A stretch of 64,000 bases of DNA, taken from the NCBI RefSeq assembly GCF_037265215.1, contig NZ_CP147737.1:2760001-2824000 (forward strand). Reading direction: 5' to 3'. Each line of letters opens with the position of its first letter. Position 1 is the stretch's first letter. The position numbers and the translations under genes were made by a program. The DNA comes from Xenorhabdus griffiniae (GTDB taxonomy: Bacteria; Pseudomonadota; Gammaproteobacteria; Enterobacterales; Enterobacteriaceae). Shown one piece after another: positions 15,346 to 29,541 of this stretch. The notes under the pieces were generated by a model. The model was not told the DNA's origin and searched no databases. It was given only the letters and a program-made list of their open reading frames with translations.

Positions 15346-15619
15346 TCCATCTTGTCCTGATATTCCGCTTTAACCATCCGCTATAACGCCCGCATTCATT
15401 ATCAACATTTAAGTAACAAAAAAATATCGACACACGGTATTTATTTCAGTTAATTTAATTTCAAGATGTTACTATCAAGTGTGTATTTAGCGCAGAAATA
15501 CACCAAATCATCGACAACTCGTTCATGTTTACAGAGAAACAGTTATAGGCATAACTTCATTTATTTTCAAACGGATGCAACAAATAAAAACCAAATAATT
15601 ACACAAAGGAGTCATGATA

Positions 15620-18600
15620 ATGTTACACGAAAACGCTTCACAAACTTCTTCAGTCGCTTGTAATAACCATTCTCTCTCCTTGTCTACCTATCCCCTCAGT
15701 TCTCCCCAGCAAGCCATCTGGTTTGATCAGGCAATTCATCCCAATTCTTCCAACTACAACCTCAGCATTTTTATCTGCATTGAAGGGGAATTGAATGAAA
15801 CATTATTTGCCCGTGCCTTTGAATCTGTTGTTTACTGTCATGACACTCTGCGTTTGCAATTTCTCAACACCCACGCTTTACCCAGGCAAAAGGTTGTTCG
15901 TTCTCTCTCGGTAGCCGTGGATATACAGGATTTTTCATTGCATCCAGATGCTGAAACCAGAGCAAAGCAATACATGGATGACGAGTTCATACGTCCATTT
16001 CGCCTAAATGAAACACTGTGGCGTTCCAATTTATTGCGCGTCAGCAATAACTATCGGTACTGGCAATTTTGCTGTCATCATTTAGTCATTGATGGCACAG
16101 GTATGTTCATACTCACCAATCAGGTTATCGATGCCTATAATCGCCTGATGAATGGAGAAATCCTGAACAATTCTGCTCACTCTTATCTGGATTTTATTAC
16201 GGATAACCTCAATTACCTGGCTTCTGAACACTACTCACACGATCAGCAATTTTGGTTAAAACGCTATGAAAACCAGCCTCCTCCCTTGCTCCAGCCGGCC
16301 AATTTCAATAACACGATAAACCATAAACAAACCAAGCCTGTTATTTGGGCCATCGACCAGGCTTTGTTTAAACGTATCGAAAAAGTAGCTGGCGGACAGG
16401 GATTGCCTTTCCTGCATTTCATGTATGCCATTCTGGCCTGCTACTTTGCACGAACAGCAGATGTCAATGACATTGTTATTGGTATTCCTGTGCACAACCG
16501 CAAAAATACGCGACAAAAATCCACGATGGGTATGTTCGCCTCCGTGCTCCCCATTGGCATCACCCTTTCGCCAGAGGATACGTTTCGTGATGTCATGCGC
16601 AAAGCTGCAACCGAAATGAGTCTTTGCCATGAGCATCAACGCTTTCCCATCGCAGAACTTAACCGACAAATACACGCGCGCCAACAAGCAGGAAATGCTC
16701 GATTATTTGATGTAACTTTATCTCTCGAACCCTTTAAAGCCAATTTGCATATGGCAGGAGAAGACGTCAGCGTCAAACAATTAGAACTACATTCCGGTGC
16801 CCCCTACCCTCTTTGTATCAGAATGAAGCAATACACAAACACCGCCCGTTCTGAAGAGACCTGTTCCCCGATTTCCATTGAGTTCTATTATTCTCCTGAT
16901 TATCTGAGTAGCACGGAAGTTATAACGCTCCGCTCCCGTCTTGCTGTCCTGCTTGATGCCGCTCTCACTTCTCTGGCGATGCCTTCTCTTACGCAGACCA
17001 AAATAGCCAATCTGCCAATCCTGCCCGACATCGAGCATCAGCAGGTATTGGTGGATTTCAACGCCACCCACGCCGAGTTTCCGCAAGATACTCTGATTCA
17101 TCAACTGTTCGAAACACAAGTACGGCGCACACCCAATGCCATTGCCGCGGTTTTTGAAGAGCAATCGTTAAGCTACGATGAACTAAATAAACGTGCCAAT
17201 CGTCTGGCGCATCATCTGATTGCTCTCGGCGTACGTCCTGATGATCGAGTGGCAATTTGTATTGAGCGTAGTCTGGAAATGGTGATCGGTTTATTAGGTA
17301 TCCTCAAGGCCGGTGGAGCTTTTGTTCCCCTTGATCCGACTTATCCAGCCACACGGCTGACCTATATGCTCAATGACTCCGCTCCCGTGGCGCTGATTAC
17401 TCAAACAACGATGACAGAAATAGGGAATAGTCACCTGCCAACCATTCTGCTTGATATTCCAGACGATTCTGTTTTGGATGAAAAATCGGAAGAAAATCCA
17501 GAGGTTCAAACCTTGGGACTGACCTCCCGTCATCTGGCTTATGTTATCTATACTTCAGGCTCCACAGGGCAACCCAAAGGCGTCATGATCGAACATCGCA
17601 GTTTGTGTAACTTGATCACTACTCAGCAAGACATACTCACCATCTCTCCAGACAGTCGGATTTTGCAATTTGCCTCAAACAGTTTCGATGCCTGTATTTG
17701 GGAATGTTGTATGGCTCTGTTGGCGGGCGCTCGCCTTTACCTTGCCAGACGGGAAAACTTGCTGCCGGGAACAACGCTGTTTCACTACTTAGAGACTCAC
17801 GCCATTACTCATGCCCTCTTATCCCCCACGGCTCTGGCAACTATGGACTCGCTTCCGGCAACCCTACAAACCTTAATAGTGGGAGGAGAAGCGTGTCCGC
17901 CTACGCTGACCAAACGCTGGGCGCAAGGACGACAGATGATCAATGCATATGGCCCGACGGAAGCCACTGTTTGTGCGACTCTTTGTCGATGTGAAAGTCA
18001 GGGAAATCATGCCCCGCCGATTGGTCGTCCCATCGCCAATACTCAGATCTATATCCTTGATATACACGGTCAACCCGTGCCGTGCGGAGTTGTGGGAGAA
18101 ATATATATCGCTGGCGTCGCTGTTGCCCGCGGTTACTTGAACCGTCCTGAACTTACTGCTGAACGTTTTCTCATCAACCCGCTCGCTTCTGAGCACAATG
18201 CTCGTATGTACAAAACCGGTGATCTGGGACGTTGGCTCCCCGATGGCAAAATTGAATATCTCGGCCGTAATGATTTCCAGATCAAACTGCGTGGTTTCCG
18301 TATTGAGCTGGGAGAGATCGAAGCAAGACTGCGGCAATGCCACGGCGTACGTGAAGCCGTAGTATTACCTTGTGAAAAGCTGCCTTGTGAAAACAGTTCA
18401 GTAGCAAAACAGCTAGTTGCCTACTTATTACCGCAAACCGGTGTTGAACTGGAACCCATGGCATTAAGGCAGCAACTCGCACAACAGCTTGCAGAATACA
18501 TGATACCCAGTGCCTTCGTGACACTTGATGCCTTTCCACTGACACCCAATGGCAAACTTGACCGTCAGGCGCTTCCCAAACCCGATCATACGGCAATCGT

Positions 18601-21600
18601 CACACGCAGTTATCAGGCGCCCATAGGTGAAGCAGAAACCCTTCTGAGTCAAATTTGGCAAATATTGCTTGGCGTGAAATATGTCAGCCGCTGCGATCAC
18701 TTTTTCGAGCTTGGCGGGCACTCGCTGATAGCTGTTAGCCTGATCGAAAAACTACGTGAATTGGGATGGTGTCTTGATATTCAGGTTGTCTTCACTAAAC
18801 CTGTCTTGAAAGAGATGGCAAAAGCGCTACTGTCGGTTCAAAAAGACACGGTTCCAGGGAATACAGAACAAGAAAATACCACGATATTCACTGTACCCCC
18901 CAATCTTATCCCTGACGGCTGTACTGCCATTACCCCCGACATGTTGACTTTAGTGTCCTTATCCCAGCACGAGATTGATGCCATCGCCGCGACCATCCCG
19001 GGTGGTGCGGCCAATATCCAGGATATTTATCCTCTCGCACCGCTACAGGAAGGAATTTTGTTCCATCATCTGTTGCAAAAACAGGGCGATACTTATCTGT
19101 TACGCGAGTTGCTTGCTTTCAACACCCGCGAACGGCTCGATACCTTTTTGGCAACCCTACAACGAGTCATTGACCGTCACGATATTCTGCACACTTCAAT
19201 CTACTGGCAGGGGTTAGCACAGCCAGTCCAGGTCGTCTGGCGACAAGCAGCTTTGAACATTAATACATACTTACCCAATGACGAACAGGATATCCCTTGC
19301 CAATTACTGGCGCGTACCGATCCACAACAGTACCGTCTTGATGTGAGTCAGGCCCCCCTCTTCTCCGCTGATATCGCCTATAACCCGCATCAGGATGAAT
19401 GGTTACTGGTTTTGTGTATCCATCATTTAGTCTGTGATCATGTCGCACTGGAACGCATCATTGATGAAATTGATGCATTATTACCTGACCATCGCGACAA
19501 TGAACATCCTGACAACTGTCATGCTGAAAAATTACCTCCAATATTGCCTTATCGTAATTTTGTCGCCCAATGCCTGCATACGCCGGCTTCAGATCATGAA
19601 GTTTATTTTCATAAGGTACTCTCTGACATAGATGCACCAACAGCACCTTTCGGGATACTGGATATTCACAGTGAAGATAAGCAGATAACCGAGGCCAGAC
19701 AGCCACTGAATATGGCGCTGTCCAGAGCCATTCGCACACAAGCCCGACGTCAGGGTGTCAGCCCCAGTATATTGTTTCATGTTGCTTTAGCGCTGGTGCT
19801 GGCAAAAACCAGTGGCCGCGACGATGTCGTCTTCGGTACGGTATTGTTGGGGCGTATGCAGGGCCGTACTGGCATCGATCAAATGATGGGGCTGCTTATC
19901 AATACGTTACCCATTCGGATCGGGCTGACAGATAATAGTGCACAAGCGAGCGTTCAAGAAACTTACCTCAATTTGATGAGGTTGCTGGAACACGAACAGG
20001 CAACACTGACACTGGCTCAACATTGCAGTAGCGTGATCCCTCCTTTGCCACTCTTTAACACACTACTCAACTATCGTCATAGCCAGGCGGATACGACCTT
20101 GGCTAAATGGGAAGGTGTGCGTCTGCTGATGGTAGAAGAGAGAATCAATTACCCTATTGGTTTATTTGTTGATGATTGGGGTGATGGATTTAGTTTGGTT
20201 GCTCAAACCGTATCGGACATCGATCCGATTCGTTTGATCGGCTATATGACGACTGCCCTGGCGGGACTGGTCGAAACACTGGAAACCTCACCCCACCAGC
20301 CTGTTTTGGCTATTTCGATTTTACCCAGCGCAGAACGCCAACAAGTGCTGGTGGATTTCAACACGCTTCCACCGTCTCCAGACTTTGTATTCTCTCAAAA
20401 TACAGCAACCGACTTCTCACAAGACACATTTATTCATCAACTGTTTGAAAAGCAAGTACAGCAAAATCCCGATGCGATTGCTGTCATCTTTGAAGAGCAA
20501 TCATTGAGTTATGTTGAACTGAACCGTCAAGCCAATTGTTTAGCGCATTATCTGATTACCTTGGGTGTCCGTCCTGATGATCGGGTAGCGATTTGTGCTG
20601 AACGCAGTCCCATCATGATGGTGGGATTACTCGCTATCCTTAAAGCTGGTGGGGCTTATGTCCCGCTCGATCCAGGCTATCCGACCGAACGACTGGCTTA
20701 TATACTTGAAGATGCTGCTCCCGTTGCCTTACTCAGCCAAACGTTATTCAGTCAAACAATGTTAATCAATCGACTGACCAACGTACCCATTGTCGATCTC
20801 AGTAACCTTACATTCCTTACCACAAACATGCCAAGTAGCAACCCAGATCCCAAAGTGCTTGGCCTAACCTCACACCATCTGGCTTATGTGATTTATACCT
20901 CTGGTTCAACTGGTTTACCCAAAGGGGTTATGAACGAACACCGTAGTGTCGTGAATGGTCTGCTCTGGTCACAGAAGACTTATCAATTAACTCCGCAGGA
21001 TCGGATCTTGCAGAAAACACCATTTAGTTTTGATGTTTCTGTTTGGGAGCTATTCCCACCCCTGATGTTTGGGGCCAAATTGATTCTGGCTCGCCCCGAT
21101 GGTCATAAAGATCCGCACTATTTACGGTCTGAAATAGAAAAACACCGGATTACGCTTATCTACTTCGTGCCCGCCATGCTCCAGCAATTTGTCCATGCTA
21201 TTCCTGCTGGTTGTTGTCCTTCCTTGCGTCATATTTTATGCAGTGGTGAAGAGTTTCCTTATGCCTTGCAGCAGAAATGTCTGTCCCATTTTGCTCACTG
21301 CCAGTTACACAATTTATATGGCCCAACTGAAGCTGCGATCCATGTCACCGCTTGGCAATGCGTGCCAGAACGGTATATCGGACGAGTACCGATTGGAAAG
21401 CCCATAGCCAATATCCAAATTTATTTGCTTGATAGTCACCAAAAACCCGTGCCAATCGGTGTTACAGGCGAGCTTTACATTGGCGGCATCGGTGTTGCCC
21501 GCGGTTATCTGAACCTTCCAGAGTTAACCACTGAACGCTTCCTTGCTGATCCTTTTTCTTCAGATCCTGATGCCCGCTTATACAAAAGTGGTGACCTGGC

Positions 21601-24600
21601 GCGTTGGTTGCCTGATGGCAATATTGAATATCTTGGCCGTAATGATTTTCAGGTCAAGATACGTGGTTTCCGTATCGAACTTGGTGAAATTGAGACGACA
21701 TTAGCGCAATGTCGCGGTGTACGGGACGCGGTTGTGGTTGTCCGCGAAGAGACATCCAATGAAAAGCGGCTGGTTGCTTATCTGCTCGCCGAACCCAATG
21801 CGACACTGGTCCCCGCAGAACTACGCCAGCAACTGGCACAACACCTTGCCGAATATATGCTGCCTAGCGCCTTTGTCACGCTTGATGCTTTTCCATTAAC
21901 ACCCAATGGCAAAATCAACCGTCAGGCCCTGCCAATGCCAGATCAAACAGCACTCGCGACACGCAATTATGCAGCGCCCATCGGAGACATAGAAACAGCG
22001 CTGGCCGGAATTTGGCAAGAATTGCTGAAACTGGCACAAGTCGGTCGTCATGATCATTTCTTTGACCTTGGTGGTCATTCTTTGCTCGCCATTCAGCTTG
22101 CCGCACGAATACGCCAGAAACTGGCGCGAGAACTGCACTTGCAGCAACTCTTTTCCCATCCGGTTCTGGCCGATTTAGCTGCCTTGCTCATCGACACGCC
22201 TGTCACAGCGCAAATCGTTATTCCCGTTACCGATCGCAATCAACCGCTACCGCTTTCTTTCTCCCAGCAACGCTTGTGGTTCCTTGCCAGACTCAACAGC
22301 AAAGCCAATCTGGCCTATCATATTCCGATAATCCTGCATCTCAGCGGAAAGCTCGATCATACTGCGTTTACGGCTGCACTTGACCAACTCGTTAGCCGAC
22401 ATGAAAGTTTGCGCACCCGTTTTGTCCTGATTAATGACCAACCTTACCAACACATCGATAATGCAGACACGGGTTTTTCTCTCACCAGTCATGATCTGCG
22501 CAGGCTAGACGAAACGTCTCGTCTGAGCCGCATTAACGAATTAGCAGAACTTGAAACACAAACCCCATTCGATTTCGCTAATGAGCCAATGATTCGAGGT
22601 CATTTACTGCAACTGACTGATGAAGAACATGTGTTGATCCTTACCCAGCATCACATCATTACCGATGGCTGGTCAGTAGGAATCTTGTTCCGCGAGCTGA
22701 GTGCCCTCTATCGTACCGCGCAAGGGAAATGTGGCGATCCTTTACCTCACTTACCTATCCAGTATGCAGACTATGCCGTCTGGCAACAAAAATGGCTACG
22801 AGATGAGGCTCTGACTGCACAACGGGATTTCTGGCAGAAACAACTGCAAAACGCACCGACATTGCTGACTCTCCCGATTGATCACCCACGCCCGCCAGAA
22901 CAAAGTTACACCGGCGCTTATGTGCCCGTTCACTTGAATGCTGATTTATTGTCGGCTCTCAAAGCGCTCGGACAACGGCAGGATGCCACATTATTTATGA
23001 CCTTGCTTACAGCCTGGAGCATCGTGCTTGCCCGTTTGAGCGGACAAGATGATATTGTGATTGGCACCCCCGTTGCCAACCGTTCATTGAATGAACTTGA
23101 AGGCTTGATCGGCTTTTTTGCCAATACCCTGCCTGTACGTATCGAACTGGAACAATGCAACTCGGTGGCAAATCTACTCGCTCACGTTCGTAAACAGACG
23201 CTGGCAGCTTATGCACATCAAGATCTGCCTTTTGAACAATTGGTGGAAACCCTAAAACCCGAACGCAGCTTGAGCTACAACCCGATTTTTCAGGTTATGC
23301 TGGCCCTGAACAATACCCCCACTCAATCCCTTGAGTTACCGGGTTTATCTGTCTCGAAGATGGTGCCTCCACATCGCAGCGCGTATTTTGACCTGACACT
23401 GTCACTGACCGAAAGCCAGGATAGTCTCAGTGGTTATCTGGAATATGCATCAAGCCTGTTCGACCGGACGACAGTTGAACGCATGGTCAGTTATCTCAAT
23501 AATGTACTGACTGCTATGACAACGAATGAAACACAGGCTATTGCTCACCTGCCAATGTTATCCGTTGCAGAACGCCAACAATTATTGGTTGATTTCAATG
23601 CGCCTCAAGCTGATTTTCCGCATAATACCTTGATTCATCAACTGTTCGAAACTCAGGTACAACGTACACCAGATGCTACGGCGGTGATCTTTGAAAAACA
23701 AACCTTAAGTTATGAAGAACTGAACTGCCGTGCCAACCAACTGGCACATCGTTTGATTGCTTTTGGTGTACGTCCCGATGACCGCGTAGCAATTCAGGTT
23801 GAACGGGGTTTGGACATGATCATTGGACTGTTTGGGATCTTAAAAGCCGGTGCCGGTTACATTCCGCTTGATCCAGAATACCCTGCCGAACGGCTGATTT
23901 ATCAATTGTCAGACTGCAAACCTGCCATATTGCTGACTCAGAAACATTTACAGACACGCTTACCAATACAAGATATTCCCATCTGGCTGCTGGATGATGA
24001 AACTTACCAAGATAATCTGCAAAAACAGCCTGTTTATAACCCTGACAGCAGGCAAACAGGCGTTCAGCCGCATCATTTGGCCTATATCATCTACACTTCG
24101 GGTTCAACCGGTAACCCCAAAGGTGTCATGCTGGAACATCGCAATGTTGTCAGCCTTATCCATGCTCATTGCCAGATCAGTGAACCTGGTTTGGGGGATC
24201 GTATTCTGCAATTTGTGACTTTCGCGTTTGACATTTCAGTGTCAGATATTTTTCCTACCCTGGCATCGGGTGCCACGCTGGTTTTGCGTCCACCTTCTAT
24301 CAAAATACCGAATAGCTCATTTGTTGATTTTTTACGTGAACAGAAAGTGACGATCATCAATATACCGACGGCTTTCTGGCATCATTGGGCTCAAGAAATG
24401 AAGGCAGGACGTGTCGGTTTCAGCCCCTATATACACACCGTGATTGTTGGCGGAGATAAAGTGGAATACCGCTATTTAATAGATTGGCTGTCGTGCCCGG
24501 AAACCCAATCCTGCCGCTGGTTCAACGCTTATGGTCCAACAGAAATTACCATCACTGCTACGGCTATGCAGATAGATAAAGAAATGGTGATAGATAAAAA

Positions 24601-27196
24601 ATATGCTCCGCCTATCACTAACAATATTCCGATTGGCCGGCCACTGTCCAACACACGTATCTATATTTTGGATGCATTTTGTCAGCCAGTGCCTGTTGGC
24701 GTAAGTGGTGAAATCTATATCGGCGGAATGGGGGTCGCCCGTGGTTATTCCAACCAACCGGCGCTGACAGCAAAGAAATTTATTGTCGATCCCTTTAGCG
24801 AACATCCCAACGCTCGCATGTATAAGACCGGGGATTTGGCTCGCTGGCGATCTGACGGCAATATCGAGTACCTTGGTCGCAATGATTTTCAGATCAAGCT
24901 ACGCGGCTACCGGATCGAACTGGGGGAAATTGAAACCAGATTGATGCAATGCCACGGCGTGCGTGAAGCTATCGTGCTTGCCCGTGAAGATAAGCTGGGT
25001 GATAAGCGCCTAATTGCTTATCTGATCGCCGAACCGAATATAAAACTGGCACCAACAGAGCTGCGCCAGCAACTCGCACAATATCTCGCCGACTATATGC
25101 TACCCAGTGCATTTGTGACACTGGATGCTTTTCCATTGGCTCCTAATGGCAAAATTAACCGCCAGGCACTACCGATGCCGGATCAGACATCCATTGCAAC
25201 CCATAGTTATGAAGAGCCGCTCGGTGAAATGGAAATTGCCCTGGCTGAAATTTGGCAAGCTTTATTAGGACTGAAAAAAGTTGGGCGTTATGATCATTTC
25301 TTTGAACTTGGTGGGCATTCTCTGATGGTTATCAACCTGATTGAGCGGCTGCGCAATCGAGGTTGCCACCTTGATATTCGTACTGTATTTTCCACACCAA
25401 CACTGGCTGAAATGGCGAAAATAATACAGGTAATTCAGGATGATGCCCCTTCGCTCACCGTGCCGCCCAATCTTATCCCGGCTGGTTGCACCGCCATCAC
25501 GCCTGATATGCTGCCGCTGGTTTCTCTGACACAACGCGAGATTGATATTATCGCTGCAACTACGCCCCATGGTGTCAACAATATTCAGGATATCTATCCG
25601 CTTGCACCATTACAGGAAGGTATGCTGTTCCATCATCTACTGCAACCACAAGGAGATGCTTATCTGTTACATCTCCTGCTTGCTTTCAATACTCGCGAGC
25701 GTCTCGATGCTTTTCTGGCTGCTTTGCAACAGGTGATTAATCGTCACGATATTTTGCGTACTGCCATCTGCTGGCAGGGCTTAACACAGCCCGTTCAGGT
25801 GGTTTGGCGTCAGGCTTCTCTGCGCATCAGGACCTTTGTGCCCGATAACGATAAAGACGTGCCATCTCAATTGTTGGCACAGACAGATCCGTACCAACAC
25901 CGACTCGATATCAGCCAGGCTCCGCTACTCTCTGCTGATATCGCACATGATCCGGATCAGGACGAGTGGTTGTTAGCGTTGTGTTGTCACCATATCCTTA
26001 ATGACCATATCTCTTTGGATATTATCGTTGCCGAAATTAATGAACTCCTGCATCATCGTACGGAGCAATTACCGCCTGTATTACCGTACCGCCATTTTAT
26101 CGCCCAATCCTTGCATATGCCGATGCCCGATCACGTAGCCTATTTCCGGAAAGTGCTCGCGGATGTGGATACGCCAACAACCCCGTTCGGCATATTGGAT
26201 GTACACAGTGGAGACAGACCAGTCACTGAGACTAACAGGCCACTTGGTGCAGCACTGACTCGTGCTATTCGCAAACAGGCTCGCCGTCAAGGTGTTAGCC
26301 CTGGGATCCTGTTCCATGTTGCGTTAGCACAAGTGCTGGCAAAAATAAGTGGGCGAGATGATGTCGTCTTCGGAACAGTTTTGTCAGGGCGTATGCAAGG
26401 AAGTGCCGATATTGAGCGAATTCTGGGACTGTTTATCAACACCTTGCCCGTGCGGATCACACTTGCGGGGAACAGTACACAAGAAACCGTACAAACAACT
26501 TACCGCAGTTTGACGCAGTTACTTGAACATGAACAGGCACCCTTGGCGCTGGCTCAACGTTGCAGCGGAGTAGCACATCCTCTGCCGCTTTTTAATACAC
26601 TCCTCAATTATCGCCATAGCCAACCGGATGTTACCAATACTCTATGGGAAGGTATACGTCTGGTAACAGGACGAGAAAGGACTAACTATCCCATCTATCT
26701 GGCTATAGATGATTTGGGTAAAGGCTTCCTGTTGACAGCTCAGACAATATCGGGAATCGATCCGGCACGCCTGATTGCTGAGATGACATCTGCTTTAGCA
26801 GATCTGGTAAAAACATTAGAAACCGAACCCCAAAAACCAATCATGAGTATTGCTACCCTGTCTGCCACAGAGCGCCAGCAGCTATTAACCGGTTTCAACG
26901 CTATTCAGGCTGAATTGCCGCAAAATGCACTGATATCACAATCTACTATTGGAACAACTTCCGGTTACGAAGCGCCCCTTGGTGATGTGGAAACTGCACT
27001 GGCTGAAATTTGGCAGAAATTGCTGAAACGAGAACAGATCGGTCGTTATGACAATTTCTTTGCATTAGGAGGTCATTCATTGATAGCAATACAATTGCTG
27101 GCTCGTATGCATGAGCAAGACATGGAAATTCCATTAGCAACCTTGTTCACTCATCCTACACTGTGTGAACTGGCCAGCGTTATAAGCCCAAATTGA
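15620..27196 (+). CDS. Nonribosomal peptide synthetase, C-A-T-C/E-A-T-C-A-T-C/E-T (no TE, last module lacks A)
   Basis: Giant peptide synthetase, about 3858 residues. Domains: C1 (15-465, HHLVIDG; EntF-like initiating type), A1 (480-985), T1 (Ser in GGHSL, about 1031), dual C/E2 (1092-1570; N-terminal HHLLQKQGD signature, HHLVCDH core), A2 (1580-2105), T2 (about 2150), conventional C3 (2207-2647, HHIITDGWS), A3 (2660-3185), T3 (about 3231), dual C/E4 (3281-3747; HHLLQPQGD, HHILNDH), then directly T4 (about 3816). The last module has no A domain and there is no thioesterase. All three A domains keep YTSGSTG and PNGK. By-eye ten-residue codes: A1 DAWLIGAVCK (hydrophobic, Leu/Phe-like), A2 DVWYLSLIHK (Ser-like with two changes), A3 DISNIGAITK (unassigned). 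C/E logic predicts D-aa1, L-aa2, D-aa3. The start is put at ATG 15620 because AAAGGAG sits 8 bases upstream; ATG 15614 would be only 2 bases away. No MbtH, PPTase or transporter gene nearby. Confidence 0.96.
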   Translation: MLHENASQTSSVACNNHSLSLSTYPLSSPQQAIWFDQAIHPNSSNYNLSIFICIEGELNETLFARAFESVVYCHDTLRLQFLNTHALPRQKVVRSLSVAVDIQDFSLHPDAETRAKQYMDDEFIRPFRLNETLWRSNLLRVSNNYRYWQFCCHHLVIDGTGMFILTNQVIDAYNRLMNGEILNNSAHSYLDFITDNLNYLASEHYSHDQQFWLKRYENQPPPLLQPANFNNTINHKQTKPVIWAIDQALFKRIEKVAGGQGLPFLHFMYAILACYFARTADVNDIVIGIPVHNRKNTRQKSTMGMFASVLPIGITLSPEDTFRDVMRKAATEMSLCHEHQRFPIAELNRQIHARQQAGNARLFDVTLSLEPFKANLHMAGEDVSVKQLELHSGAPYPLCIRMKQYTNTARSEETCSPISIEFYYSPDYLSSTEVITLRSRLAVLLDAALTSLAMPSLTQTKIANLPILPDIEHQQVLVDFNATHAEFPQDTLIHQLFETQVRRTPNAIAAVFEEQSLSYDELNKRANRLAHHLIALGVRPDDRVAICIERSLEMVIGLLGILKAGGAFVPLDPTYPATRLTYMLNDSAPVALITQTTMTEIGNSHLPTILLDIPDDSVLDEKSEENPEVQTLGLTSRHLAYVIYTSGSTGQPKGVMIEHRSLCNLITTQQDILTISPDSRILQFASNSFDACIWECCMALLAGARLYLARRENLLPGTTLFHYLETHAITHALLSPTALATMDSLPATLQTLIVGGEACPPTLTKRWAQGRQMINAYGPTEATVCATLCRCESQGNHAPPIGRPIANTQIYILDIHGQPVPCGVVGEIYIAGVAVARGYLNRPELTAERFLINPLASEHNARMYKTGDLGRWLPDGKIEYLGRNDFQIKLRGFRIELGEIEARLRQCHGVREAVVLPCEKLPCENSSVAKQLVAYLLPQTGVELEPMALRQQLAQQLAEYMIPSAFVTLDAFPLTPNGKLDRQALPKPDHTAIVTRSYQAPIGEAETLLSQIWQILLGVKYVSRCDHFFELGGHSLIAVSLIEKLRELGWCLDIQVVFTKPVLKEMAKALLSVQKDTVPGNTEQENTTIFTVPPNLIPDGCTAITPDMLTLVSLSQHEIDAIAATIPGGAANIQDIYPLAPLQEGILFHHLLQKQGDTYLLRELLAFNTRERLDTFLATLQRVIDRHDILHTSIYWQGLAQPVQVVWRQAALNINTYLPNDEQDIPCQLLARTDPQQYRLDVSQAPLFSADIAYNPHQDEWLLVLCIHHLVCDHVALERIIDEIDALLPDHRDNEHPDNCHAEKLPPILPYRNFVAQCLHTPASDHEVYFHKVLSDIDAPTAPFGILDIHSEDKQITEARQPLNMALSRAIRTQARRQGVSPSILFHVALALVLAKTSGRDDVVFGTVLLGRMQGRTGIDQMMGLLINTLPIRIGLTDNSAQASVQETYLNLMRLLEHEQATLTLAQHCSSVIPPLPLFNTLLNYRHSQADTTLAKWEGVRLLMVEERINYPIGLFVDDWGDGFSLVAQTVSDIDPIRLIGYMTTALAGLVETLETSPHQPVLAISILPSAERQQVLVDFNTLPPSPDFVFSQNTATDFSQDTFIHQLFEKQVQQNPDAIAVIFEEQSLSYVELNRQANCLAHYLITLGVRPDDRVAICAERSPIMMVGLLAILKAGGAYVPLDPGYPTERLAYILEDAAPVALLSQTLFSQTMLINRLTNVPIVDLSNLTFLTTNMPSSNPDPKVLGLTSHHLAYVIYTSGSTGLPKGVMNEHRSVVNGLLWSQKTYQLTPQDRILQKTPFSFDVSVWELFPPLMFGAKLILARPDGHKDPHYLRSEIEKHRITLIYFVPAMLQQFVHAIPAGCCPSLRHILCSGEEFPYALQQKCLSHFAHCQLHNLYGPTEAAIHVTAWQCVPERYIGRVPIGKPIANIQIYLLDSHQKPVPIGVTGELYIGGIGVARGYLNLPELTTERFLADPFSSDPDARLYKSGDLARWLPDGNIEYLGRNDFQVKIRGFRIELGEIETTLAQCRGVRDAVVVVREETSNEKRLVAYLLAEPNATLVPAELRQQLAQHLAEYMLPSAFVTLDAFPLTPNGKINRQALPMPDQTALATRNYAAPIGDIETALAGIWQELLKLAQVGRHDHFFDLGGHSLLAIQLAARIRQKLARELHLQQLFSHPVLADLAALLIDTPVTAQIVIPVTDRNQPLPLSFSQQRLWFLARLNSKANLAYHIPIILHLSGKLDHTAFTAALDQLVSRHESLRTRFVLINDQPYQHIDNADTGFSLTSHDLRRLDETSRLSRINELAELETQTPFDFANEPMIRGHLLQLTDEEHVLILTQHHIITDGWSVGILFRELSALYRTAQGKCGDPLPHLPIQYADYAVWQQKWLRDEALTAQRDFWQKQLQNAPTLLTLPIDHPRPPEQSYTGAYVPVHLNADLLSALKALGQRQDATLFMTLLTAWSIVLARLSGQDDIVIGTPVANRSLNELEGLIGFFANTLPVRIELEQCNSVANLLAHVRKQTLAAYAHQDLPFEQLVETLKPERSLSYNPIFQVMLALNNTPTQSLELPGLSVSKMVPPHRSAYFDLTLSLTESQDSLSGYLEYASSLFDRTTVERMVSYLNNVLTAMTTNETQAIAHLPMLSVAERQQLLVDFNAPQADFPHNTLIHQLFETQVQRTPDATAVIFEKQTLSYEELNCRANQLAHRLIAFGVRPDDRVAIQVERGLDMIIGLFGILKAGAGYIPLDPEYPAERLIYQLSDCKPAILLTQKHLQTRLPIQDIPIWLLDDETYQDNLQKQPVYNPDSRQTGVQPHHLAYIIYTSGSTGNPKGVMLEHRNVVSLIHAHCQISEPGLGDRILQFVTFAFDISVSDIFPTLASGATLVLRPPSIKIPNSSFVDFLREQKVTIINIPTAFWHHWAQEMKAGRVGFSPYIHTVIVGGDKVEYRYLIDWLSCPETQSCRWFNAYGPTEITITATAMQIDKEMVIDKKYAPPITNNIPIGRPLSNTRIYILDAFCQPVPVGVSGEIYIGGMGVARGYSNQPALTAKKFIVDPFSEHPNARMYKTGDLARWRSDGNIEYLGRNDFQIKLRGYRIELGEIETRLMQCHGVREAIVLAREDKLGDKRLIAYLIAEPNIKLAPTELRQQLAQYLADYMLPSAFVTLDAFPLAPNGKINRQALPMPDQTSIATHSYEEPLGEMEIALAEIWQALLGLKKVGRYDHFFELGGHSLMVINLIERLRNRGCHLDIRTVFSTPTLAEMAKIIQVIQDDAPSLTVPPNLIPAGCTAITPDMLPLVSLTQREIDIIAATTPHGVNNIQDIYPLAPLQEGMLFHHLLQPQGDAYLLHLLLAFNTRERLDAFLAALQQVINRHDILRTAICWQGLTQPVQVVWRQASLRIRTFVPDNDKDVPSQLLAQTDPYQHRLDISQAPLLSADIAHDPDQDEWLLALCCHHILNDHISLDIIVAEINELLHHRTEQLPPVLPYRHFIAQSLHMPMPDHVAYFRKVLADVDTPTTPFGILDVHSGDRPVTETNRPLGAALTRAIRKQARRQGVSPGILFHVALAQVLAKISGRDDVVFGTVLSGRMQGSADIERILGLFINTLPVRITLAGNSTQETVQTTYRSLTQLLEHEQAPLALAQRCSGVAHPLPLFNTLLNYRHSQPDVTNTLWEGIRLVTGRERTNYPIYLAIDDLGKGFLLTAQTISGIDPARLIAEMTSALADLVKTLETEPQKPIMSIATLSATERQQLLTGFNAIQAELPQNALISQSTIGTTSGYEAPLGDVETALAEIWQKLLKREQIGRYDNFFALGGHSLIAIQLLARMHEQDMEIPLATLFTHPTLCELASVISPN

Positions 27197-27218: not shown

Positions 27219-27250
27219 AAGTGGTTCCACACCTCGTGGAGCCACTTTTC
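27219..27250 (+). terminator. Terminator after the NRPS gene
   Basis: AAGTGGTTCCAC (27219-27230), loop ACCTC, GTGGAGCCACTT (27236-27247), then TTC: a 12-bp stem with one G-T pair. It lies between two convergent genes and may serve both. Its presence argues that the NRPS reading frame ends naturally here. Confidence 0.75.
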
Positions 27251-28611: not shown

Positions 28612-29541
28612 ATGATGACATACAAACAACTTCACTCTCCCGAACCAAAATATCCATCATGGAAATCCAATGATGCTCCATTACTTATCATCCTTGGACA
28701 ATCCAATAGCTATGGTCATGGCACACAATTGCCGCCAAATAAAAGGATTACTCAAGGTTTAAATAATGTATTCACACTATCCCTGCCAGAGGTTTATAAC
28801 ACTCATTTTTCCAAAATTCACTGGACAGGATTAACCAGCTTCGGAAGCGCCAATATTGGTGCTCCCGCTGGCTTACCTCGCGGTAACCAGGATCATCCTT
28901 ATAACGCGGCCAACCGCTTTGCGAAATTTTGGCAAGATCATATCAATCAGGGCAATGCTCTGGATTTACCCGATCTTTACGTGATTTTGATGGGCTGGGG
29001 AGGACAAGGAATGTATCTAGATAATTACCCTGATAACCGCTGGGCACCGGAGCGTGATGCCAGAGATGTGGAATCCCTCTATCCCCGTGCAATTAGAACC
29101 TTACGCATGGCAATTCAATCATTGCGTAATATGGGCAAAAAACCGCGTATTTTGGCTATTCATTGGAATCAATGGGAAGCAGAAACAGAGAGTTTAGATG
29201 CAGCCAAAGCATCAGAGATAAATTTTATCCGCATTATTACCGGTATTAACAATGCTATCGGCTCGCACAATATTCCGTGGCGGTTATATTACCCACTCTC
29301 AGTCGCTTTTGATCCCATCAATACCAGCTATGTGCATGAAGCAATTAAAGCCGTTATTGCCGCAGCACCTAAATATCGTACTTTAATTGATGCAAGGAAT
29401 TCGCCAAATTACACGGGCATCGCTTCTGAATATGGTGTCTTCCTATCCGATGAAATGCATTATAATGGCGAAACCCAAACCTGGTTCGCCCAACAAGAAT
29501 GGGAACGGATTCTAACCGGTTATCGCGGCTATGAAATATAA
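28612..29541 (+). CDS. SGNH-type hydrolase / acetylesterase-like protein
   Basis: A 309-residue protein without signal peptide. LIILGQSNSYGHG (about 26-38) is the GQSN nucleophile block of sialate O-acetylesterase/CE6-type SGNH hydrolases. LSDEMHYNGETQ (about 282-293) supplies the C-terminal Asp-x-x-His, and MGWGGQG and HWNQWEAE lie where the oxyanion residues are expected. Likely cleaves an ester (acetyl or similar) from a carbohydrate or other small molecule. It lies downstream of a TE-less NRPS but 1.4 kb away, past an opposite-strand gene. A role in product release or deacylation is therefore speculation. Ribosome site AAGGGG before ATG 28612 (28615 also possible). Confidence 0.7.
   Translation: MMTYKQLHSPEPKYPSWKSNDAPLLIILGQSNSYGHGTQLPPNKRITQGLNNVFTLSLPEVYNTHFSKIHWTGLTSFGSANIGAPAGLPRGNQDHPYNAANRFAKFWQDHINQGNALDLPDLYVILMGWGGQGMYLDNYPDNRWAPERDARDVESLYPRAIRTLRMAIQSLRNMGKKPRILAIHWNQWEAETESLDAAKASEINFIRIITGINNAIGSHNIPWRLYYPLSVAFDPINTSYVHEAIKAVIAAAPKYRTLIDARNSPNYTGIASEYGVFLSDEMHYNGETQTWFAQQEWERILTGYRGYEI

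Follow-up and report, generated by a model that had tools for sequence, protein, structure and literature searches.

Xenorhabdus species are symbionts of insect-killing nematodes. In a 64,000-nucleotide stretch of the Xenorhabdus griffiniae genome, referred to as the window in the following, we examined a non-ribosomal peptide synthetase (NRPS) whose fourth and last module consists of a condensation (C) domain, C4, and a carrier (T) domain, T4, with no adenylation (A) domain between them. The gene is lpcS, the lipocitide/bovienimide synthetase of Xenorhabdus, and its A-less end, which is of long standing, conserved and known from the literature, is the normal end of LpcS and reflects neither an error nor a fresh deletion. 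As to how this end works, we judge from sequence conservation and from analogy with other synthetases, and at about even odds, that C4, of the dual condensation/epimerization (C/E) type, would both epimerize the last residue and release the chain to water or ammonia, while T4 would remain unloaded and nevertheless be needed.

The terminal T3-C/E4-T4 arrangement of LpcS has been described as unusual (PMC9177418), and lpcS of X. griffiniae ID10 has been reported and is predicted to belong to the group IIA bovienimide genes (PMC11566119); because both the architecture and the X. griffiniae gene are thus published, the A-less end is already in print. In the laboratory, lpcS stays silent, and its activation in X. 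bovienii SS-2004 yielded products, the lipocitides or bovienimides, which are acyl-D-Leu-L-Ala-D-Cit peptides (Cit, citrulline) with a C-terminal -OH or -NH2, i.e. a carboxylic acid (COOH) or a carboxamide (CONH2) (PMC9177418).

Within the lpcS open reading frame (ORF), Pfam profiles identify four Condensation, three AMP-binding, three AMP-binding_C and four PP-binding stretches, and the same scan of the ORF at 15614-27196 finds no thioesterase (TE) domain. This four-module layout with a terminal T3-C/E4-T4 is that of LpcS. An earlier note on this DNA had described a last module that lacks its A domain in frame, and the domain counts bear this out: module 4 is short of about 500 residues, with 58 residues between the FN lead-in of the A domain and the carrier motif GGHSL, as compared to 552, 571 and 572 in modules 1-3. 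Both of the remaining domains are whole, C4 covering positions 2-456 of 456 in the Condensation profile and T4 positions 2-65 of 67 in the PP-binding profile. Likewise, the motifs HHILNDH (at 25988) and GGHSL, with the T4 serine at 27077-27079, are intact, and the frame is open through to 27196, all as had been noted. The A-domain lead-in, previously placed at about 26896, is present as well; its remnant, FNAIQAELPQNALI, starts two bases earlier, at 26894. An AlphaFold2 model of T3-C4-T4 was poor, with a mean predicted local distance difference test (pLDDT) score of 59.5.

To determine the spread of this end, we used a query of 248 amino acids (aa) across the A-less junction. The junction is contiguous in 27 of the 30 genus genomes, whereas the best matches in the other three, G007, G016 and G024 (the last of which is 82% complete), extend over just 168, 167 and 83 residues (L037, L036 and L038). 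In a family sample of 295 genomes, four of the genomes with a match belong to the genus, and no junction-spanning match from the other 291 was found among the matches listed; a plasmid search gave no match. The gene of the window thus shares with published LpcS the genus, the four-module layout, the T3-C/E4-T4 end and the wide, nearly genus-wide occurrence (PMC9177418; PMC11566119). Of the four named records returned, the nearest is that of X. griffiniae VH1, with 97% identity across C4-T4. The orthologue in genome G005 (L054), presumed to be that of X. bovienii SS-2004, has the same A-less end and is 76% identical over C4-T4; it is through L054, and given the presumed identity of G005, that our tree connects the gene of the window with the SS-2004 gene. 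As the junction recurs in so many genomes, including the presumed SS-2004, it is neither an error nor recent.

We therefore reject two possibilities that the earlier note had entertained, a recent deletion and a sequencing or assembly error. Such an event, or a pseudogene, might be suspected from the absence of an A domain that the other LpcS modules possess and from the silence of lpcS in the laboratory (PMC9177418). Yet the same junction is read through across nearly all of the genus and in VH1, there is purifying selection on either side of it, the scar left by the lost domain has eroded to differing stages in different lineages, and activation in SS-2004 gave products (PMC9177418). This explanation is refuted, and we accord it practically no weight.

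The purifying selection became apparent in an alignment of 28 rows, comprising 26 fetched orthologues, the gene of the window and L069, a second lpcS-like gene of G019. L069 (G019:C48:103000-120000) lies near the first copy; its 4725-aa frame contains five carrier motifs and has the A-less end as well. Nowhere is the alignment less conserved than between C4 and T4. Ratios of non-synonymous to synonymous substitution rates (dN/dS) were calculated pairwise by the Nei-Gojobori method, leaving out L069, and pooled over pairs that are not independent of one another, from seven near relatives and from eight other close pairs; they amount, respectively, to 0.128 and 0.157 for C4 and to 0.159 and 0.128 for T4, which compares to 0.099-0.242 for the nine other LpcS domains and to 0.62 and 0.50 for the scar. 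C4 and T4 are constrained like the other LpcS domains, and the scar changes almost freely. Moreover, the T4 serine and the HHxxNDH motif of C4 are each kept in 27 of 27 rows. Given this constraint and the invariant serine, T4 is not a decaying remnant.

The scar also offers clues to its age. A relic of the A-domain motif A10 is detectable in six of the 28 rows (L053, L058, L059, L060, L061 and L068), for each of which at most 1 of 2000 shuffles was as good (≤0.0005). In the remaining 22 rows, it is below significance by shuffling; in the window itself, no relic was found (shuffle fraction 0.95), and the next fractions, not counted, are 0.025 (L066), 0.055 (L050) and 0.09 (L051). Mapped onto a tree built from the remainder of the protein, these six rows require four changes, a number as low as that in 42 of 500 label shuffles, and are thus not clearly clustered. 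This pattern would be accounted for best by one old deletion followed by repeated erosion, while a chance gain of A10 in separate lineages is unlikely. Since relics persist in six of the rows, the loss of A4 must be old. The gene has moved, too: among the 27 stretches fetched, lpcS is adjoined by fliR in 13 and by a dehydrogenase gene in 14, although some stretches do not reach far enough to include either gene. In G005, about 340 kb separate lpcS from fliR. Hence, lpcS changed its genome position while its A-less end stayed constant.

The substrate codes of the A domains, which we read by hand against the GrsA numbering, can be related to the known product. The A3 core is FDISVS in all 28 rows. 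For A2, by contrast, 17 rows including the window, which form one group on the tree, have a Ser-like FDVSVW core, nine rows including L054 have FDLAVY, and L061 and L069 have other cores, indicating an apparent A-domain exchange that should alter residue 2 of the product. A2 of the window is accordingly a different domain from that of the presumed SS-2004 gene. Given its Ser-like code, serine would be expected in place of the lipocitide alanine, and the product of the window gene is probably acyl-D-Leu-L-Ser-D-Cit, in agreement with the separate bovienimide group to which the X. griffiniae gene is assigned. As for the stereochemistry, the signature of dual C/E domains, which we take to be an early HH[I/L]xxxxGD motif in addition to HHxxxD, is kept in C4 with both histidines, the glycine and the aspartate in 27 of 27 rows. 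In C2, it is whole in the window, and the first histidine is kept in 26 of 27 rows and the second in 9; in C3, the early motif is not present by eye. Dual-type motifs in C2 and C4 and their apparent absence from C3 fit the D-L-D configuration.

Three A domains, three residues and a product that occurs both as acid and as amide point to a release by C/E4 without a fourth residue. The sequences show that the core of A4 was lost in frame long ago, that an eroding scar now connects C/E4 with T4, and that purifying selection acts on both domains. For the release, we propose the following course. C/E4 would epimerize the T3-bound third residue, so that the residue beside the end has the D configuration, and would admit a small nucleophile to the T3-bound chain, where water would yield the carboxylic acid and ammonia the carboxamide. 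T4 would bear no amino acid, and its folded, serine-bearing form would be required for the C/E4 step or for stability. More specifically, C/E4-T4 could be a release device that arose by in-frame A loss in a Xenorhabdus ancestor, and in which epimerization and subsequent transfer to ammonia produce a carboxamide without a thioesterase, an amidotransferase or an extra amino acid, a never-loaded T4 being obligatory; this fuller version we put forward tentatively, with clearly less confidence than the general one. An A-less end that is shared by most homologues and has a known function had been considered before as a way to explain the module away. The end is indeed common to the genus and its product is known, which leaves the role of T4 as the point at issue.

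The closest demonstrated mechanism is that of module 13 of glidonin synthetase (C13-A*-T13-TE1-TE2), in which C13 transfers the chain to free putrescine and inactivation of either C13 or T13 abolishes the product (PMC10587159). Like the LpcS end, this module is terminal and has a truncated A domain; as we propose for LpcS, it needs its T domain and has an active C domain that passes the chain to a free nucleophile, here an amine. Unlike LpcS, it retains the C-terminal A subdomain and tandem TEs and uses putrescine as the nucleophile (PMC10587159); the comparison made here is one of function. The lipocitide carboxamide would be compatible with a transfer of this type by the terminal C domain. 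A second precedent are the rhabdopeptide/xenortide (RXP) NRPSs of Xenorhabdus and Photorhabdus, whose products end in amines; a C domain forms or closes the final module of these enzymes, no T domain is named as following it, and the amines are bulky (PMC9872161). A new way of capping or release, as the earlier note had suggested, is therefore right insofar as release is the best-supported reading, and less so in its novelty.

The glidonin work also lends itself to another interpretation. Its authors consider A*-T13 to be stabilizing or structural and point to other putrescine-adding NRPSs that terminate in C-T didomains; in addition, some product was formed from free putrescine with A12T12 alone (PMC10587159). 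By the same token, C/E4 might solely epimerize, T4 might be a structural remnant that stabilizes C4, and release of the chain might be left to a separate type II thioesterase or to uncatalyzed hydrolysis or ammonolysis. LpcS itself has no TE, and free-standing TE-like ORFs are found in the same genome. However, the T4 serine, which is not obviously needed for structure, is strictly kept, although the inactivation of T13 abolished glidonins, too (PMC10587159). On balance, we find this rather improbable, if the most serious of the competitors.

Somewhat less probable still, though the principal active alternative, is trans-loading of T4, in which an A or A-T protein separate from LpcS would supply a residue that is later cut off. 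Here, the model is SyrE, whose module 9 (C-T-TE) lacks an A domain in the same way as the last module of LpcS; it differs from LpcS in that it is loaded by SyrB1, an A-T protein encoded upstream, and in that it ends in a TE (PMC8949500). Such loading would be in line with the conservation of the T4 serine and fold, and apart from its large NRPSs, the genome encodes AMP-binding ORFs, of NRPS type or not, that are about 460-1130 aa long. Yet the reported products are tripeptides that match the three A domains (PMC9177418), and the 64-kb window, in which a clustered stand-alone A-T partner might be expected, holds no A domain beyond the three of LpcS. Furthermore, lpcS is located differently in at least some lineages, and no partner gene was seen to travel with it, within flanks of only about 2 kb per locus that were not scanned for A domains. 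Alternatively, one of the A domains of LpcS could load T4 as well, and the last residue of the resulting tetrapeptide could be cleaved in such a way that its nitrogen stays behind as the carboxamide. While this would account for both the carboxamide and the conserved serine, we know of no enzyme for such a cleavage. Nor does the available account of the lipocitide products mention a tetrapeptide (PMC9177418), and we consider this route very unlikely.

Several observations weigh against release by C/E4 with an unloaded T4. The dual motif on which the assignment of C2 relies has lost its second histidine in all but 9 of 27 rows; the pairs behind the pooled dN/dS values are not independent; ammonia as the source of the amide nitrogen is a guess from the product; a loaded T4 would likewise show strict serine conservation; and other parts of the genome contain AMP-binding ORFs, NRPS or other, as well as free-standing thioesterase ORFs. 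Finally, one of the 27 orthologues, that of G018, has a TE behind T4, so release may need help.

This orthologue (L058) is the only one with a long extension behind T4, comprising 346 residues after the neighbour of the serine, versus 38-57 in the others. The extension is a TE domain (L058:1662-2576, minus strand) fused behind the A-less C4-T4. Homologues had been expected to reveal whether an A4 and a TE once stood at this junction; 27 genomes have the A-less end, and the TE occurs in G018 only. Among the matches listed, it is closest (78% identity) to the second TE in an NRPS of the same genome that carries tandem TEs, no other match exceeding 71%, and it was apparently copied from that NRPS. 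With this degree of identity, a secondary gain is likelier than the retention of an ancestral TE. In the genome of the window, the two nearest of 63 other matches to T4 both precede tandem TEs, with a chance of about 0.02 given the roughly 9 of 63 that are TE-adjacent by our own reading of two lists. This suggests a TE as the former end of the lost module, which may originally have been T-TE-TE. No convincing TE relic was found behind the other orthologues. The C-terminal tails of L054 and L057 bear a faint likeness to a TE end. Upstream of lpcS, L057 has a short thioesterase-like stretch (L057:14427-14512, minus strand), perhaps a relic of another NRPS; the corresponding stretch of L054, at 1932-1967, is both shorter and weaker. 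In G006, a 286-aa frame that matches thioesterase (L109; G006:C86:257245-258084) lies about 4 kb downstream of lpcS and is 70% identical to the lpcS-fused TE of G018.

The coordinates of the features in the window are compiled below. Behind the lpcS stop, where a strong terminator had been proposed, there is a strong hairpin (-22 kcal/mol, z -5.35); its T run is short, however, and a terminator scan gave no site on the plus strand. In many relatives, an inverted repeat that looks similar by eye lies behind the stop, even in those with different coding tails. Beyond the dehydrogenase gene, at 28612-29541, lies an ORF with a match to the carbohydrate esterase family SASA, and such an ORF is likewise found beyond the dehydrogenase gene in 5 of the 27 stretches fetched from relatives; many of the 27 stop short of this place.

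Features of lpcS and its 3' flank, in positions of the window
Feature	Position	Strand	Basis or remark
lpcS, tetramodular NRPS C1-A1-T1-C/E2-A2-T2-C3-A3-T3-C/E4-T4, 3860 aa	15614..27196	+	Pfam, orthologues, published architecture
C1, putative starter condensation domain	15686..16993 (approximate)	+	type read from sequence
A1	17057..18583	+	Leu-like code, own reading
T1	18614..18823	+	Pfam
C2, putative dual C/E	18956..20293	+	HHLLQKQGD motif
A2	20447..21937	+	Ser-like code in the clade of the window
T2	21971..22183	+	Pfam
C3, ordinary condensation domain	22247..23587	+	Pfam; type by eye
A3	23639..25177	+	FDISVS core; citrulline assigned from published product
T3	25211..25423	+	Pfam
C4, dual C/E type	25583..26884	+	HHLLQPQGD at 25631, HHILNDH at 25988
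Scar of lost A4 core	26885..26968	+	A-domain lead-in joined to A-T linker; dN/dS 0.62 / 0.50
T4 carrier, intact	26981..27178	+	Ser at 27077-27079
Hairpin after lpcS stop, between convergent lpcS and dehydrogenase gene	27219..27247	+	short T run

LpcS is the most widespread Xenorhabdus-specific synthetase, and the A-less end is its fixed trait. Its products damp nitric-oxide production in insects (PMC9177418). What our analysis adds to the published architecture is that T4, with its serine, is fully selected although it lacks an A domain of its own, while the adjoining scar decays. The question of T4 and release can be reduced to one small, testable fragment. If C/E4 acts as we propose, the LpcS end would be an old, natural case of a domain loss that turned a module into a terminator, and as such would be of use to NRPS engineering.

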